DNA from: Desulfobacca acetoxidans DSM 11109
GTDB taxonomy: Bacteria > Desulfobacterota > Desulfobaccia > Desulfobaccales > Desulfobaccaceae
Reading direction: 5' to 3'
Length of the DNA stretch: 64,000 nucleotides
Assembly (NCBI RefSeq): GCF_000195295.1
Contig: NC_015388.1
Span: forward strand, 3,038,001 to 3,102,000
The number at the start of each line of letters is the position of its first letter. The stretch's first letter is position 1. The position numbers and the translations under genes are program-made. The notes under the pieces are model-generated. The model did no database searches. It saw only the letters and a program-made list of their open reading frames with translations, and was not told the origin of the DNA. Of this stretch, positions 1 to 5,330 are shown piece after piece.

Positions 1-496
1 CGAAGAGCACCCCCAGGGCAAGTACCGTTCCCAGGTCAGTGACAAAGCAGGCGGCCAGGATAAGCTTGCCTATATCAACTTCATTAAGCCGAGTTTCGAT
101 CATCACGGCGTAGACGACGGCCACCGAAGTGGTGGACAGGGCGACGCCAGCGATCTGCGCCGCCCGCAGGTCCCAGCCATTGACAAAATAAGTAAAGGCC
201 ATGGCTCCCAGGAACGGCGCCAAAAAGGATATGCCACCGATAACCAGGCTGGGTTTGAGATGTTTGCGAAAAGAGACGGGGTCGATCTCGGCCCCGGCCA
301 GAAAGGTGAGCATCATGGAGCCGAAGGCGGCTAACACATCGATCCAGGGGACGGTATGGAAACCCAAAAAATTACCACCAACCATCCCTAAAAAAATCTC
401 CACTAGGGCCACGGAAACCCCGGTGCGGATGGAGATAAGGCTGGCCAGTAAAGCCAGGCCGATCCAACTTGCTGCCGTGAACCAGACATGTTCCAC
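1..496 (-). CDS. Cation:proton antiporter (Kef/NhaP type), N-terminal part
   Basis: Translating the minus strand from a GTG at 496 gives about 165 residues that run off the window edge. The protein is strongly hydrophobic with several membrane spans. It contains stretches such as LTFLAGAEIDP and GVALSTTSVAVVYAVM, typical of the Na+/H+ exchanger (CPA2/Kef) fold, where the acidic residue after LAGAE lies in the ion path. It is the third gene of a leftward run after crcB and the DUF190/CBS gene (gap of about 78 bases), so it probably shares the fluoride-responsive transcript. Sodium/proton antiporters are a known class of fluoride-riboswitch-controlled genes. The exact substrate ion cannot be read from the sequence. 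The start is chosen because a GGGGGGGAG stretch precedes the GTG. The C-terminus is outside the window. Confidence 0.85.
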   Translation of the reverse strand, partial: MEHVWFTAASWIGLALLASLISIRTGVSVALVEIFLGMVGGNFLGFHTVPWIDVLAAFGSMMLTFLAGAEIDPVSFRKHLKPSLVIGGISFLAPFLGAMAFTYFVNGWDLRAAQIAGVALSTTSVAVVYAVMIETRLNEVDIGKLILAACFVTDLGTVLALGVLF

Positions 497-574: not shown

Positions 575-1855
575 TTAAGAAGAGGCAAAACCGGTGCGCA
601 ACAGGGCCTCCCGGCTGACCATGCCTTTAAATTTTCCCTGGGCATCGAGAACCGGCAGCCGTTTAATGCAATTTTCCAACATCAGCCGGATGGCTTCATT
701 AATTGGAGCATCTTCCTCAATGGTGATAATATGGGTATTCATAACTTCGGAGGCAGTTTTCACCTCCAGGTGCCGCTGGAGGTGCTTATGCCGACGTCTC
801 CGCTCGGTAAAAGGCAGTTTGCTGACAAAGTAATCCCAGATCCCGGGATGCCTGTCGGCAAAGGCCACCAGCAGATCGCGATCCGAAATCAATCCCAGGA
901 AATTGCCTTGCTGGTCTACGACACAAACCCGCTGTATATCCCCGCAGTCGATCAAGCGAATCACCTCCTCCACCGGTGTCTCAGGAAGAACCGTAGTAGT
1001 TTCACGACGCATGATGTCCGAAACAAAGCGCAGGTTCTCCACGTTGATTTTCTGTTTCTGAAAGGTCTGCCAATCCGGGCACTCCCGTAGGATGCTATGA
1101 AATATATCCACCCGTGAGAGGTTGCCCACGAGCTTCCCTTCGGCATCAACTACTGGTAGACGCTTCACCTTTTTTTCCAGCATGAGATTCACGGCCTCGG
1201 TAACCCTTTGCTCCTGCCCTATGGTCACCGCCGGTTTGGTCATAATTTCTCTGGCCTGTCTCGAACCCAGAGCCTCCAGTACCGCATCCACTTTTTCGTC
1301 GGCTGATTCGGATAGCAATCCCAACCGCATCGGCATCCCTGCTTTGTAGATTAGATCGGTCTGGGAGATGACGCCTACCGGATGTTTCTCTGCGTCCACC
1401 ACCGGAAGGCCGGTAAAGGTGGAGGAGAGCAGCAGGCGTGTCACTTCGGCCAGCGAAGTCTCCAGATTGACCTTTCTCGGCTGTAAAGTCATCAGTTCCC
1501 GCACCTGGGTCTGCCTGGGAATGAGCAGACCCCGAGTCCTATGGGAGATTACTTGCACATCCTGAACCACCACAATACCGTCAGTGACCATCTCCTGCAT
1601 TTTGATCAGAATATTCTCAGCTCCACTTAACGGGGCGATAATCGTAATCTGCACCGGCATGTTGTAGGACAGAACCTCAATACTGCGGGTGGCGATCTCG
1701 CCGCTTTCGTAAGAACCCTCAATCCCTCCGGTTACCATAGTGCGCGCTGCGATTTTCAGGTCGTGGACATACTGCACAATGGCCTTATAAAGAGGCTCCC
1801 CCCGCCAGCGGGCTTCTTCATCAGTAAAGATTTCAATGAGCTTATAGTGCTGCAT
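575..1855 (-). CDS. DUF190 (PII-like) protein with four CBS domains
   Basis: 426 residues. Residues 1-108 match the DUF190 family, a PII-like fold that begins with the shape MQHYKLIEIFTDE. Four CBS motifs follow at about 120-180, 205-265, 280-340 and 365-426, i.e. two Bateman modules. CBS pairs usually bind adenine nucleotides and gate transporters or enzymes. The gene starts 12 bases after crcB ends and precedes the antiporter, so it is a likely nucleotide-sensing regulator of one of these two transporters. DUF190 genes commonly neighbour crcB. The ATG at 1855 has GGAG 8 bases upstream, inside the end of crcB, suggesting translational coupling. The ligand is unknown. That it acts in fluoride resistance is inferred from position. 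Confidence 0.85.
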   Translation of the reverse strand: MQHYKLIEIFTDEEARWRGEPLYKAIVQYVHDLKIAARTMVTGGIEGSYESGEIATRSIEVLSYNMPVQITIIAPLSGAENILIKMQEMVTDGIVVVQDVQVISHRTRGLLIPRQTQVRELMTLQPRKVNLETSLAEVTRLLLSSTFTGLPVVDAEKHPVGVISQTDLIYKAGMPMRLGLLSESADEKVDAVLEALGSRQAREIMTKPAVTIGQEQRVTEAVNLMLEKKVKRLPVVDAEGKLVGNLSRVDIFHSILRECPDWQTFQKQKINVENLRFVSDIMRRETTTVLPETPVEEVIRLIDCGDIQRVCVVDQQGNFLGLISDRDLLVAFADRHPGIWDYFVSKLPFTERRRRHKHLQRHLEVKTASEVMNTHIITIEEDAPINEAIRLMLENCIKRLPVLDAQGKFKGMVSREALLRTGFASS

Positions 1856-1867
1856 ACATGGACTCCG

Positions 1868-2245
1868 TTACCGCAGCCGACCCACCACAAGGCCCAAGAA
1901 AACCAGGGCCGAACCGATGACATTGTTGGTTAGAATGTTGGCCGTCGAGACGATATATCTTCCTTCTCGGAAAGCATTTACCGTCTCCAGGCCAAACGTG
2001 GAAAACGTTGTCAACGCCCCGAGATACCCGGTCATAAAAAAAAGACGCATAGAGGGATTCATGATGCCCAAACCGCGGTCTGCGAGAGCGAAAGCCAGAC
2101 CGATGAGGAAGCACCCTAAAAGGTTAACGATGAGCGTTCCATAAGGGAATTTGGCACCAAATAGTTTTACGGCGAACAAAGAAACCCCATAGCGCGAAAG
2201 AGCTCCCAGGCTGCCGCCAGCCATCACCAAGAGTATTTTCATCAT
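1868..2245 (-). CDS. crcB: Fluoride channel CrcB/Fluc
   Basis: 125 residues from the ATG at 2245 (a second ATG at 2242 is equally possible), the usual Fluc length. Family motifs are visible: GGSLGALSRY near the N-terminus, PYGTLIVNLLGCFLIG in the second helix and the break motif GYLGALTTFSTF in the third. These residues line the fluoride pathway and the central Na+ site of the dual-topology dimer. Four membrane helices are expected. The protein exports fluoride passively across the inner membrane. The open frame extends upstream to 2371, but those residues look unlike the family and overlap leader RNA, so the shorter start is preferred. A fluoride riboswitch about 190 bases upstream on the same strand supports both identity and regulation. 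Confidence 0.95.
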   Translation of the reverse strand: MMKILLVMAGGSLGALSRYGVSLFAVKLFGAKFPYGTLIVNLLGCFLIGLAFALADRGLGIMNPSMRLFFMTGYLGALTTFSTFGLETVNAFREGRYIVSTANILTNNVIGSALVFLGLVVGRLR

Positions 2246-2435
2246 CCAACTCTCGAACGAAATCAACCGTCGAAAACAATTTATATTGAGCAGTTTGCGG
2301 AAGCGCACTATCTTGCAGACCCCAAAGAATAGTCTTGGCCAGGATAAGTCTTTGTAAAAGTTTAAACGCATATCATCATGATATAATTAGCTGATTTAAC
2401 TGAAACGGAAATCTTCGGCCCGTTTCGCCCCCCCA

Positions 2436-2529
2436 AAAAAAAAATTCTACTGAAATCATGGAATCCCAGTAGAAGTCATCATCCCGAAAACATTTGCTTC
2501 AGGCGGTTGAAGGCGGACCCCATCGCCAG
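2436..2529 (-). promoter_or_regulatory. Fluoride riboswitch (crcB motif) with intrinsic terminator, controlling crcB
   Basis: On the minus strand the aptamer begins with GGCGATGGGGTCCGCC (from 2527), continues with AACCGCC and ends with GATGATGACTTCTACTG (to about 2467). This matches the crcB RNA: P1 is GGCG/CGCC, and GGGGTC can pair with GACTTC as the pseudoknot. The 3' end TTCTACTG (2452-2445) is also the 5' arm of a perfect 8 bp hairpin (other arm 2474-2467 on the + strand) followed by nine Ts. Fluoride binding should therefore block termination and turn crcB on. Confidence 0.95.
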
Positions 2530-2541
2530 TTTACATTTTTC

Positions 2542-2608: not shown

Positions 2609-2637
2609 TTGACTGATATATATAGAAACGGTAATAT
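2609..2637 (+). promoter_or_regulatory. Sigma-70-type promoter for the GTPase leader
   Basis: TTGACT at 2609-2614 and TAATAT at 2632-2637 are separated by 17 bases, close to consensus. Initiation near 2644 would place the transcript start just before the second fluoride riboswitch at 2649. Confidence 0.8.
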
Positions 2638-2647
2638 TAGTGCAAAT

Positions 2648-2734
2648 AGGTGATGAGGTCCACCATAACTGCCTTGCCGAGGAATTGGCCGGGATGATGA
2701 CTTCTGCCCCACACTTAGGGCAGAAGTTTTTTTT
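2648..2734 (+). promoter_or_regulatory. Fluoride riboswitch with terminator, upstream of the dynamin-like GTPase
   Basis: The aptamer starts GGTGATGAGGTCCACC (2649-2664), continues AACTGCC and ends GATGATGACTTCTGCCCC. P1 is GGTG/CACC, and GAGGTC pairs with GACTTC as the crcB-motif pseudoknot. CTTCTGCCC (2701-2709) pairs perfectly with GGGCAGAAG (2718-2726), followed by eight Ts. This is a terminator whose 5' arm overlaps the aptamer's 3' end, so fluoride should permit read-through. The GTPase ATG follows 18 bases after the T tract. Confidence 0.93.
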
Positions 2735-2752
2735 GTGCTGAGGTTTTAGTAA

Positions 2753-4507
2753 ATGAGTATTTATAAGCAGTTTCAGCAATCTCTGGAACAACAACTGAAA
2801 AATCTAGCACGCTTCCCAGAAATCAGCCGAACCAATATTTCTTTTATTTTGGATAAACTGCGCCAGAATCGCTTTAATCTGGTTATGTTGGGTGCATTTA
2901 AGAGGGGCAAAAGCACCCTGATCAACGCCCTCCTGGGTGAATCCTTACTGCCCACTGCGGTTATTCCCCTAACTTCGGTGGTTACGATCATCGGCTATGG
3001 CGAAAAACTACGAATTGATGTCCTCTTTCATAATGGTCAGCGGCGGCAGATAGCCGGTAGCGAATTAGCAGCCTATATAACGGAAAGGGGCAATCCTCAT
3101 AATAAGAAAGGTGTGCTGGAAGTCGATATCGCCTACCCGTCGGCATATCTTAAAGACGGCGTCCGGATCATCGATACTCCCGGAGTCGGTTCAGTTTACA
3201 GCCACAATACCGAGGTCGCCTATAACTACCTGCCGCAGGTGGATGCCGCCATTTTTGTGGTCACGGTGGACCCGCCACTATCAGCCTCTGAGGAAGAGTT
3301 TTTAAAGGATATTCGGGAATATGTCCATAAGCTCTTTTTTGTGCTGAATAAAATCGATTATGTAGCCGAAGCGGAACGGCAGGAGGCCCTGGACTTTACC
3401 CGGCAGGTATTAACAACTAGTTTAGGGACGGACAATCTCCAGATCTTTCCCCTAACCGCCAAGCTTGCCCTTGAAGGCAAACAGGCCGGGCAACCCAAGC
3501 TGCTGGAAGAAAGCCTGCTGCCCCAATTTGAAGATCATTTGCGGACCTTCCTCTATCAAGAAAAGGGTCGGGTTCTGTTGATTTCGTGCGTCACCGGGGC
3601 CCTGAAGTCCATCACCGACTCAACCCTGGCTCTGAAGGTGGAACGGCATGCCAGCTCCATGCCTCTCAAGGAGTTGGAAGAAAAGATCGGACGGTTCAAT
3701 CTTGAGTTGCAGGGCCTGGAAAAAGAGCGTGAAATGTCCCTGCTCCTGTTGGACGGACGCATGAAGGGGGTAATTGAGGAAGTCAACACCGATCTGGAAA
3801 CCTTTAAAAATGAAACCATGACCCGACTGCGTCGAGAAGTGCAGGAGGCCTTCCAACAGAAACTTCAAGCCTCGGGAGATCTGCGCCAGGAGATGGAGAA
3901 GTTTCTCTTTGGCACCCTCCGCAACCTTTTCACCTTATGGCGCAGCAGTGAAATCGAAAAAATTACTCAGAATCTGGCGGGCGTCCATCAGGAATTCGCC
4001 GACCGCATAAATTCTATCCTGGAGCGGTTGACCGAACTTACGGCCCGGATTTTTGACTTTTCTCTTCGGGGATTTAGCGCCGAAACCGCCCTGACCGAAA
4101 AAAGTCATTTTTGGTTTAAGTTTAAAGAAGACCCGGTTGGCCTGGAAATCATTCAAATAACAATAACCTCTCTACTTCCGCGGGCCTTGACCAAAGGGAT
4201 GCTCCTCAAAAAACTTTTGGAAAACGTCGACGAACTGGTGGACAAACATTGTGGCCGCTTGCGCTATGATTTTCAAAACAGGCTCAACGACATGGCCCGT
4301 GAATTTCGGCAAACTTGGCTGGCCAAAATCGATTACACCACAGACAGTATCCGTCAAGCTCTTGAACGCGCCCTGGCTCAAAAAAAGGACAATAGCCAAA
4401 CTGTTGCAACCCGACTGGGGGAACTGGACAGGCGATTGGAGGCTATCCTGCAGGCCGAAGCAGCTCTATTAACTTTAAAAGAGCAGATCTCTGCTACTTT
4501 ACATTAA
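2753..4507 (+). CDS. Dynamin-like GTPase
   Basis: 584 residues. G1 is GAFKRGKST at about residues 47-55, a threonine for G2 lies in the PLTSVVT stretch, G3 is DTPG near 140 and G4 is NKID near 198. Behind the GTPase domain lies a long helical region with coiled-coil character and a hydrophobic patch near 465-485 (EIIQITITSLLP) that could be a membrane paddle. This is the architecture of bacterial dynamin-like proteins that remodel or repair the inner membrane. It stands alone on the + strand, divergent from crcB, directly after a fluoride riboswitch, so it is predicted to be induced by fluoride. A GAGG element lies about 10 bases before the ATG. The family assignment is firm. A role in fluoride-linked membrane stress is inference from the riboswitch. 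Confidence 0.85.
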   Translation: MSIYKQFQQSLEQQLKNLARFPEISRTNISFILDKLRQNRFNLVMLGAFKRGKSTLINALLGESLLPTAVIPLTSVVTIIGYGEKLRIDVLFHNGQRRQIAGSELAAYITERGNPHNKKGVLEVDIAYPSAYLKDGVRIIDTPGVGSVYSHNTEVAYNYLPQVDAAIFVVTVDPPLSASEEEFLKDIREYVHKLFFVLNKIDYVAEAERQEALDFTRQVLTTSLGTDNLQIFPLTAKLALEGKQAGQPKLLEESLLPQFEDHLRTFLYQEKGRVLLISCVTGALKSITDSTLALKVERHASSMPLKELEEKIGRFNLELQGLEKEREMSLLLLDGRMKGVIEEVNTDLETFKNETMTRLRREVQEAFQQKLQASGDLRQEMEKFLFGTLRNLFTLWRSSEIEKITQNLAGVHQEFADRINSILERLTELTARIFDFSLRGFSAETALTEKSHFWFKFKEDPVGLEIIQITITSLLPRALTKGMLLKKLLENVDELVDKHCGRLRYDFQNRLNDMAREFRQTWLAKIDYTTDSIRQALERALAQKKDNSQTVATRLGELDRRLEAILQAEAALLTLKEQISATLH

Positions 4508-4614: not shown

Positions 4615-4899
4615 ATGAAAGAGTACGATCAAATCATTGCCGAAAAGGGTCTCCCCCATGTCGGGCAGACAGTACGCAGCAAAAAGTATGGTACCAGATG
4701 GCGGGTCATGGAAAAGCGGGAAGTCTGGAATAATATCGATCCTGACCCAAAGAGCGGAGAACCTCGCATGATTCCAGCCATCTATTTGAGCTATTGGAAG
4801 ATCGAGGAGGGCAGTCCCCCGGGCGTCGGCAAGATGATGGGGTTCTTGTATACTTTGTACGACAATACTTTTTTGTTGAATTGGGATATTATTGCATGA
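4615..4899 (+). CDS. Small conserved-type protein, tandem paralogue 1
   Basis: 94 residues, soluble, no signal peptide, rich in aromatic and charged residues. I do not recognise a family. It is clearly related to the next gene: both share GLP.VGQ, SKKY, WRVMEKREVW, the AIYL.YW segment and GFLYTL.DNTF..NWDI at the C-terminus. A strong AAGGAGG sits 7 bases before the ATG. The paralogue conservation along the whole length shows that this is a real protein under selection. The WRVMEKREVW and NWD signatures suggest a compact beta-rich fold, but no function can be assigned. Confidence 0.8.
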   Translation: MKEYDQIIAEKGLPHVGQTVRSKKYGTRWRVMEKREVWNNIDPDPKSGEPRMIPAIYLSYWKIEEGSPPGVGKMMGFLYTLYDNTFLLNWDIIA

Positions 4900-4983
4900 T
4901 GATAGAATTTCATCTTTATTGTTCCGCTTCTTTGTGGTCGAGATTGCTACCGGCCTCAAAAGAGCATGAGTCAGGAGGCGGCC

Positions 4984-5268
4984 ATGCAGGAATATGATGA
5001 AATTGTTAGGAAAAAGGGTCTGCCGAACGTTGGGCAGTTGGTGAAGAGCAAAAAGTACCACACTATCTGGCGGGTCATGGAAAAGCGGGAAGTCTGGCAG
5101 CCCCTGGAAGATGATCCGGCAACCAAAGAACCTCGCTGGACCTACGCCATCTATCTCAATTACTGGCGCGTTCAGAAAGACATGGAACCAGGCATGGGAA
5201 AGACCATGGGATTCTTATATACCCTAGATGACAATACTTTTCAGGAGAATTGGGATATTCTGTCCTGA
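4984..5268 (+). CDS. Small conserved-type protein, tandem paralogue 2
   Basis: 94 residues from the ATG at 4984, which has AGGAGG 5 bases upstream. An ATG at 4966 is in frame but lacks a ribosome site and would break the length match with the preceding paralogue. The two proteins align without gaps over almost their full length. The most conserved blocks are WRVMEKREVW in the first half and GFLYTLDDNTF near the end. The pair lies 85 bases apart and is followed by a clear terminator, so they form a two-gene transcript. Function unknown. Confidence 0.8.
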   Translation: MQEYDEIVRKKGLPNVGQLVKSKKYHTIWRVMEKREVWQPLEDDPATKEPRWTYAIYLNYWRVQKDMEPGMGKTMGFLYTLDDNTFQENWDILS

Positions 5269-5296: not shown

Positions 5297-5330
5297 GCGG
5301 GGGGATCGTTTATTCGACCCCCTTTTTTTT
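5297..5330 (+). terminator. Intrinsic terminator
   Basis: A GC-rich hairpin (GGGGGATCG against CGACCCCC with a short loop) followed by eight Ts, 30 bases after the second small paralogue. Confidence 0.85.

Follow-up and report, generated by a model that had tools for sequence, protein, structure and literature searches.

A fluoride riboswitch in front of a dynamin-like GTPase gene in Desulfobacca acetoxidans and the conservation of this pairing

Introduction

In the literature consulted, the genes described behind fluoride riboswitches (RF01734) encode exporters, Na+/H+ antiporters, pyrophosphatase (PPase), enolase, HAD phosphatases, formate hydrogen lyase, chorismate mutase and MutS. The switch analyzed here is located in a stretch of 64,000 nucleotides of the Desulfobacca acetoxidans DSM 11109 genome, which was analyzed as a whole and is called the window in the following. 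It resembles the known switches of this class in its full-length covariance-model match above the cut-off, its pseudoknot and the terminator overlapping the aptamer, and differs from the reported ones, as far as this literature goes, in that the gene behind it codes for a dynamin-like GTPase. A dynamin in a fluoride regulon was not found in the literature searched, which does not include the gene list and supplement of Baker et al. (2012). Within this scope, a known riboswitch class is combined with a protein class not previously reported for it.

Results and Discussion

Fluoride riboswitch in the leader of the GTPase gene

A sequence-only reading of this DNA had proposed a complete crcB-motif aptamer, an overlapping terminator and a near-consensus promoter upstream of the GTPase gene. 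The elements of this leader and the gene itself are the following:

2609..2637, + strand: promoter-like site TTGACT-N17-TAATAT just 5' of the aptamer (consensus match only)
2640..2713, + strand: fluoride riboswitch aptamer (RF01734) in the leader of the GTPase mRNA (covariance model, 41.8 bits)
2655..2660, + strand: 5' strand of the pseudoknot, GAGGUC, with its partner at 2699-2704 (sequence)
2699..2735, + strand: intrinsic terminator, GACUUCUGCCC / GGGCAGAAGUU and a U run (terminator scan, folding)
2753..4507, + strand: dynamin-like GTPase, 584 aa (Dynamin_N, PF00350, E 1.7e-27)

Using the Rfam covariance model we obtained an end-to-end match at 2640-2713, and its score lies well above the cut-off of 34 bits, with an E-value of 3.4e-8 for the whole window and 2.3e-10 for a stretch of 421 bases. 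The aptamer is therefore complete, as had been proposed, and the leader does not score as noise. The pairing of the pseudoknot in the window was read directly from the sequence. Its 3' strand GACUUC (2699-2704) also forms the first six nucleotides of the terminator stem (2699-2728), which comprises 11 bp and is followed by a T run, and this shared strand bears out the proposed overlap of aptamer and terminator. In addition, the leader folds with -38.6 kcal/mol (z -3.4), a stability that none of 200 shuffled sequences reached. Expression platform and aptamer are predicted to be mutually exclusive, which is the classic anatomy of an ON switch. Because pseudoknot and terminator cannot coexist, an aptamer stabilized by its ligand would allow transcription to continue, and the assumption that fluoride would lift termination is strongly supported by this anatomy together with the conservation described below. 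A chance match to RF01734 was ruled out by the score, the switch anatomy and the conservation. The promoter claim stands in part: the near-consensus site is present, but such matches also arise by chance, with 8 observed in the region versus 3.5 expected.

The GTPase and its relatives

For most bacterial dynamins, the cellular task is, to our knowledge, unclear. That the leader is followed by a dynamin-like GTPase was confirmed by a Dynamin_N score of 96.9 bits (Pfam cut-off 27). The motifs G1 (GAFKRGKST), G3 (DTPG) and G4 (NKID) are intact, and the motif residues are conserved throughout the orthologue alignment. Comparing a profile of the family with solved structures revealed matches to BDLP (6e-37) and IniA (7e-23) as well as to the Campylobacter DLPs and mitofusins. 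The closest solved structure by this profile, BDLP of Nostoc punctiforme (2j68/2j69), shares with the window protein a GTPase domain and a long helical trunk; in contrast to this overall likeness, the profile match reaches no further than position 326 and leaves the C-terminal trunk and tip without a match in sequence. IniA of Mycobacterium (6j72/6j73) is matched over positions 27-412. A Foldseek search with the structure model also returned IniA, the top hit, and BDLP as best matches, with the caveat that only the helical trunk is well modeled: the helices predicted after the GTPase domain (256-434 and 481-582) mostly reach a pLDDT of 75-93, whereas the part covering the GTPase domain, modeled from 8 aligned sequences, stays under 50. 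The identity to IniA in the structural alignment is only ~15%, and IniA is, according to its PDB molecule name, induced by isoniazid and not by fluoride. The Cj-DLP pair (5owv), SynDLP (7zw6) and the mitofusins are more distant relatives found by the same profile; their similarity is low, and they act as pairs or are eukaryotic fusion factors. Judged from these profile and model matches, the GTPase is a BDLP/IniA-like bacterial dynamin.

Neither a clear transmembrane segment nor a paddle could be assigned in the protein. Its most hydrophobic stretch lies within the GTPase domain, and outside this domain no strongly hydrophobic stretch is present; the loop 445-463 is modeled with low confidence. 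Therefore, a membrane action of the GTPase is assumed from family kinship. An assignment to the DynA (NF052648) or LeoA (NF041922) equivalogs was rejected, as the NCBIfam scores of 72.9 of 1600 bits and 24.7 of 325 bits, respectively, are far under the cut-offs.

Conservation of the pairing in the host phylum

A profile of 20 orthologues was used to search 395 genomes of the host phylum (E 1e-30 or better), and the dynamin family was detected in 81 of them. RF01734 was searched both in the dynamin-carrying genomes and in the whole 395-genome sample. A match less than 450 nt upstream on the same strand precedes 71 of the 92 tabulated homologues, from 69 genomes and 25 families. Eight further homologues are located 0.7-3 kb downstream of a same-strand fluoride riboswitch, and 13, some of which lie at contig ends, have no fluoride riboswitch nearby. 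A fluoride riboswitch is present in 75 of the 81 genomes with the dynamin versus 83 of the 314 without it (Fisher p 8e-29, ignoring relatedness), the latter having been scanned under stricter filters. For comparison, we inspected 29 other dynamin-type loci (PF00350) from 40 of the same genomes, and none of them has a fluoride riboswitch within 5 kb, which rules out that fluoride switches are found near all dynamins. A single-genome accident is ruled out by the linkage in 25 families. By its position behind RF01734 matches and by its neighbors, which include CrcB, enolase, exchangers and PPase, the GTPase is linked to the fluoride regulon.

In a tree of 64 proteins, where the Burkholderia, Anabaena and Paenibacillus rows form long branches of unsure placement, the riboswitch-linked label is strongly clustered. 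Five of the 13 copies without a nearby riboswitch fall together in a single supported clade, whose sister is a nine-row group including the window protein and other riboswitch-linked members.

The leaders themselves are conserved in structure. All six pseudoknot pairs are formed in each of the 50 parseable dynamin leaders; nine further leaders, the one of the window included, escaped the simple search pattern and are not part of this set. Pair 2 is A-U in 24 and G-C in 26 of these leaders, a compensatory change, and pair 6 covaries between C-G (31), U-A (10) and U-G (9). A hairpin of at least 8 bp competing with the pseudoknot strand was found in 32 leaders, whereas shuffles gave 3.1 on average and never more than 10, and a competing hairpin of 6 bp or more is followed by a T-rich tail in 20 of the 50. 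Many distant dynamin leaders have no T-run terminator. In several of them, AGGAG just before the start codon is the competing strand, which suggests that these leaders may act as translational rather than transcriptional switches.

Two genomes in this sample deserve mention. The dynamin gene of genome G039 (L071:5996-7915) contains an in-frame TAA behind an intact riboswitch and is either a pseudogene or affected by a sequencing error. In genome G014 of the host order (L073, L074), 11 fluoride riboswitches are present, and each of its two dynamin copies is riboswitch-linked.

Related dynamins outside the host phylum

Phyla beyond that of the host were sampled via plasmids only. Two plasmids, from Burkholderia cenocepacia and B. 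multivorans, carry a dynamin with an RF01734 match of its own, which scores 50.9 and 50.7 bits. As in the window, these plasmid dynamins (L220, L223, L224) lie behind their own fluoride riboswitch within a fluoride gene cluster; unlike the window protein, the Burkholderia dynamin comprises 701 aa (size in B. cenocepacia) and is preceded by a partner gene of 206-238 aa, and its GTPase domain is about 28-31% identical to that of the window dynamin. Two stretches of 20 kb each (L223, L224) contain six fluoride riboswitches apiece. The dynamin is surrounded by a gene for a HAD hydrolase or hypothetical protein together with inorganic pyrophosphatase, MutS-type genes and two enolases, and the clusters also include DUF190 genes and hydrogenase/NuoB-H-like subunits. 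On a plasmid of Lichenicola cladoniae, the dynamin is oriented divergently from a riboswitch-linked crcB and has no fluoride riboswitch on its own strand. The stretches examined around the dynamins on Anabaena, Paenibacillus and Nonomuraea plasmids contained no RF01734 match, and a search for relatives on viral contigs found none.

The persistence of the fluoride-gene linkage in 25 families and in Burkholderia also bears on the idea that the GTPase comes from a module of the LeoA/LeoBC type for general stress or phage defense and was placed behind the switches by chance. The PADLOC models for LeoA/LeoBC do match the protein at 1e-22 and 2e-17. Against this stand the linkage itself, the low NCBIfam scores for LeoA and DynA given above and the loci examined, among which no defense-gene context was seen, and we consider such a passenger extremely improbable. 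The core of the broader claim of the sequence-only reading, namely that the riboswitch controls the dynamin-like GTPase and that the pair represents a new branch of the fluoride response, is strongly supported by the occurrence in 25 families, by the lack of such switches at the 29 other dynamins and by the Burkholderia plasmid islands. The reasons it had offered for the linkage, namely mimicry by AlFx or MgFx at the GTPase site and membrane stress, have the status of hypotheses.

Proposed role of the switch and the GTPase

Without fluoride, the strand 2699-2704 would pair into the terminator and transcription would halt before the GTPase gene. With Mg-bound fluoride, this strand would be captured by the pseudoknot (2655-2660 with 2699-2704), no terminator would form, and read-through would lead to expression of the GTPase and of two small downstream genes. 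A dynamin of the BDLP/IniA type would then probably act at the inner membrane and seal, tether or remodel it, alone or together with ion pumps, in a cell into which HF enters, in which proton-driven export is burdened and phosphate enzymes are inhibited. To this reading as a whole, a fluoride-activated transcription switch combined with a dynamin that maintains or remodels the stressed inner membrane, we assign a probability of about 0.6. Induction in the cell, the action at the membrane and a benefit under fluoride are the steps that we infer. It is also conceivable that fluoride acts twice, in that the RNA switches the gene on and fluoride-metal complexes lock the GTPase with GDP in a transition-like state, assembled at the membrane; we regard this as very unlikely.

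As the pairing occurs in 25 families and on plasmids of two Burkholderia species, membrane remodeling is probably part of the bacterial fluoride response. On this view, part of the toxicity of fluoride would arise at the membrane, and the response would include more than export, the control of pH and the supply of enzymes. Furthermore, a large and widespread dynamin family receives a defined chemical cue, which makes its role directly testable, and enolase, H+-PPase, the Na+/H+ exchanger and the candidate new ~95-aa domain described below, which recur as its partners, are concrete targets.

Neighboring genes

The remaining features around the GTPase gene are a divergent crcB operon and the genes downstream of the GTPase:

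1..496, - strand: N-terminal part of a Na+/H+ exchanger, truncated by the window edge, next gene in the crcB operon (clustering)
575..1855, - strand: 426-aa protein combining DUF190 with four CBS domains, encoded behind crcB (domain search)
1868..2251, - strand: crcB (Fluc fluoride channel), 127 aa, CRCB 3.1e-27; the ORF possibly starts further upstream at 2371
2445..2474, - strand: terminator-like hairpin with T run, which overlaps the aptamer on the crcB side at its 3' end (terminator scan)
2463..2536, - strand: second, divergent fluoride riboswitch facing crcB (RF01734, 52.5 bits)
4615..4899, + strand: small protein, 94 aa, encoded by the next gene after the GTPase (family comparison)
4966..5268, + strand: another member of this small-protein family, 100 aa (family comparison)
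5299..5330, + strand: G/C hairpin followed by 8 T, probable end of the GTPase transcription unit (by eye only)

The two aptamers point apart, and the one on the crcB side outscores the one in front of the GTPase (52.5 vs 41.8 bits). The riboswitch at 2463-2536 (-) and the two ~95-aa paralogous genes had been missed in the first reading. The exchanger fragment clusters with L080:2007-3212, a protein matching PF00999 at 7.4e-33. Beyond both riboswitches of the window, the genome holds only one further RF01734 signal, a weak match of 24.2 bits (L003:1501-1575) inside a gene read as rpoC, which is probably a false positive. The gene at 4615..4899 is probably the next one of the GTPase transcription unit; the hairpin assigned to the end of this unit was seen by sequence inspection only and is absent from the list of the terminator scan.

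In the host order, riboswitch-linked genes include CrcB, DUF190-CBS proteins, two kinds of Na+/H+ exchangers, formate-tetrahydrofolate ligase and hydrogenase-like subunits, and in one of these genomes an enolase gene is located directly upstream of the riboswitch of the GTPase. Genes found repeatedly in the vicinity of the dynamin in distant genomes are those for enolase, a Na+/H+ exchanger, USP-like proteins, MFS transporters and MutS-like proteins. The fluoride-sensitive phosphate enzymes among the neighbors and regulon mates (enolase, H+-PPase, soluble PPase, PEPCK and formate-THF ligase) fit the main rival to our reading, that a dynamin blocked by fluoride is simply made in excess, as has been proposed for riboswitch-linked enolase and pyrophosphatase. 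The block would be caused by GDP with AlFx or MgFx mimicking the transition state, which is compatible with the conserved GTPase motif residues, and over-expression of enolase is described as such a response in a review (PMC11139923). Against such a compensation speaks that the dynamin is accessory, being confined to about a fifth of the host-phylum genomes, mostly ones with fluoride riboswitches. Moreover, other dynamins in the same genomes lack fluoride control, so that being a fluoride-sensitive dynamin is not sufficient, and we rate this explanation as rather unlikely.

The small proteins downstream of the GTPase have no Pfam or NCBIfam match. Their ~95-aa family, noted also at L081:5818-6081, is encoded behind the GTPase gene at most orthologous loci of the host order. 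It recurs as the C-terminal domain of Na+/H+ exchangers of ~500 aa, several of which are located behind fluoride riboswitches; the identity between the small protein downstream of the GTPase and this domain of riboswitch-linked exchangers is 43%. The family is a candidate for a new fluoride-associated domain. This similarity is one argument for a role of the GTPase as scaffold or regulator that clusters or protects the H+-PPase, the Na+/H+ exchanger and Fluc, with the ~95-aa proteins as link to the exchangers. A second argument is that all five dynamins without riboswitch in the sister clade of the group of the window protein (L173, L174, L176, L185, L187) adjoin a H+-translocating pyrophosphatase (H+-PPase). 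Both arguments are drawn from gene neighborhood, and as free proteins, members of this small family are found mostly in the host order, whereas the dynamin is distributed far wider. We consider a pump scaffold distinctly unlikely and prefer a dynamin that maintains or remodels the inner membrane under fluoride stress.

Two further arrangements were observed among the loci compared. At L070:9038-14292, a GTP-dependent PEP carboxykinase, a fluoride riboswitch, a MutS-like pair, a second fluoride riboswitch and the dynamin follow each other on one strand. In five other loci (L075, L077, L080, L082, L083), a riboswitch is followed by a ~95-aa protein, a short ORF and formate-tetrahydrofolate ligase (PF01268); these riboswitch-led runs hint that one-carbon metabolism might take part in the fluoride response.
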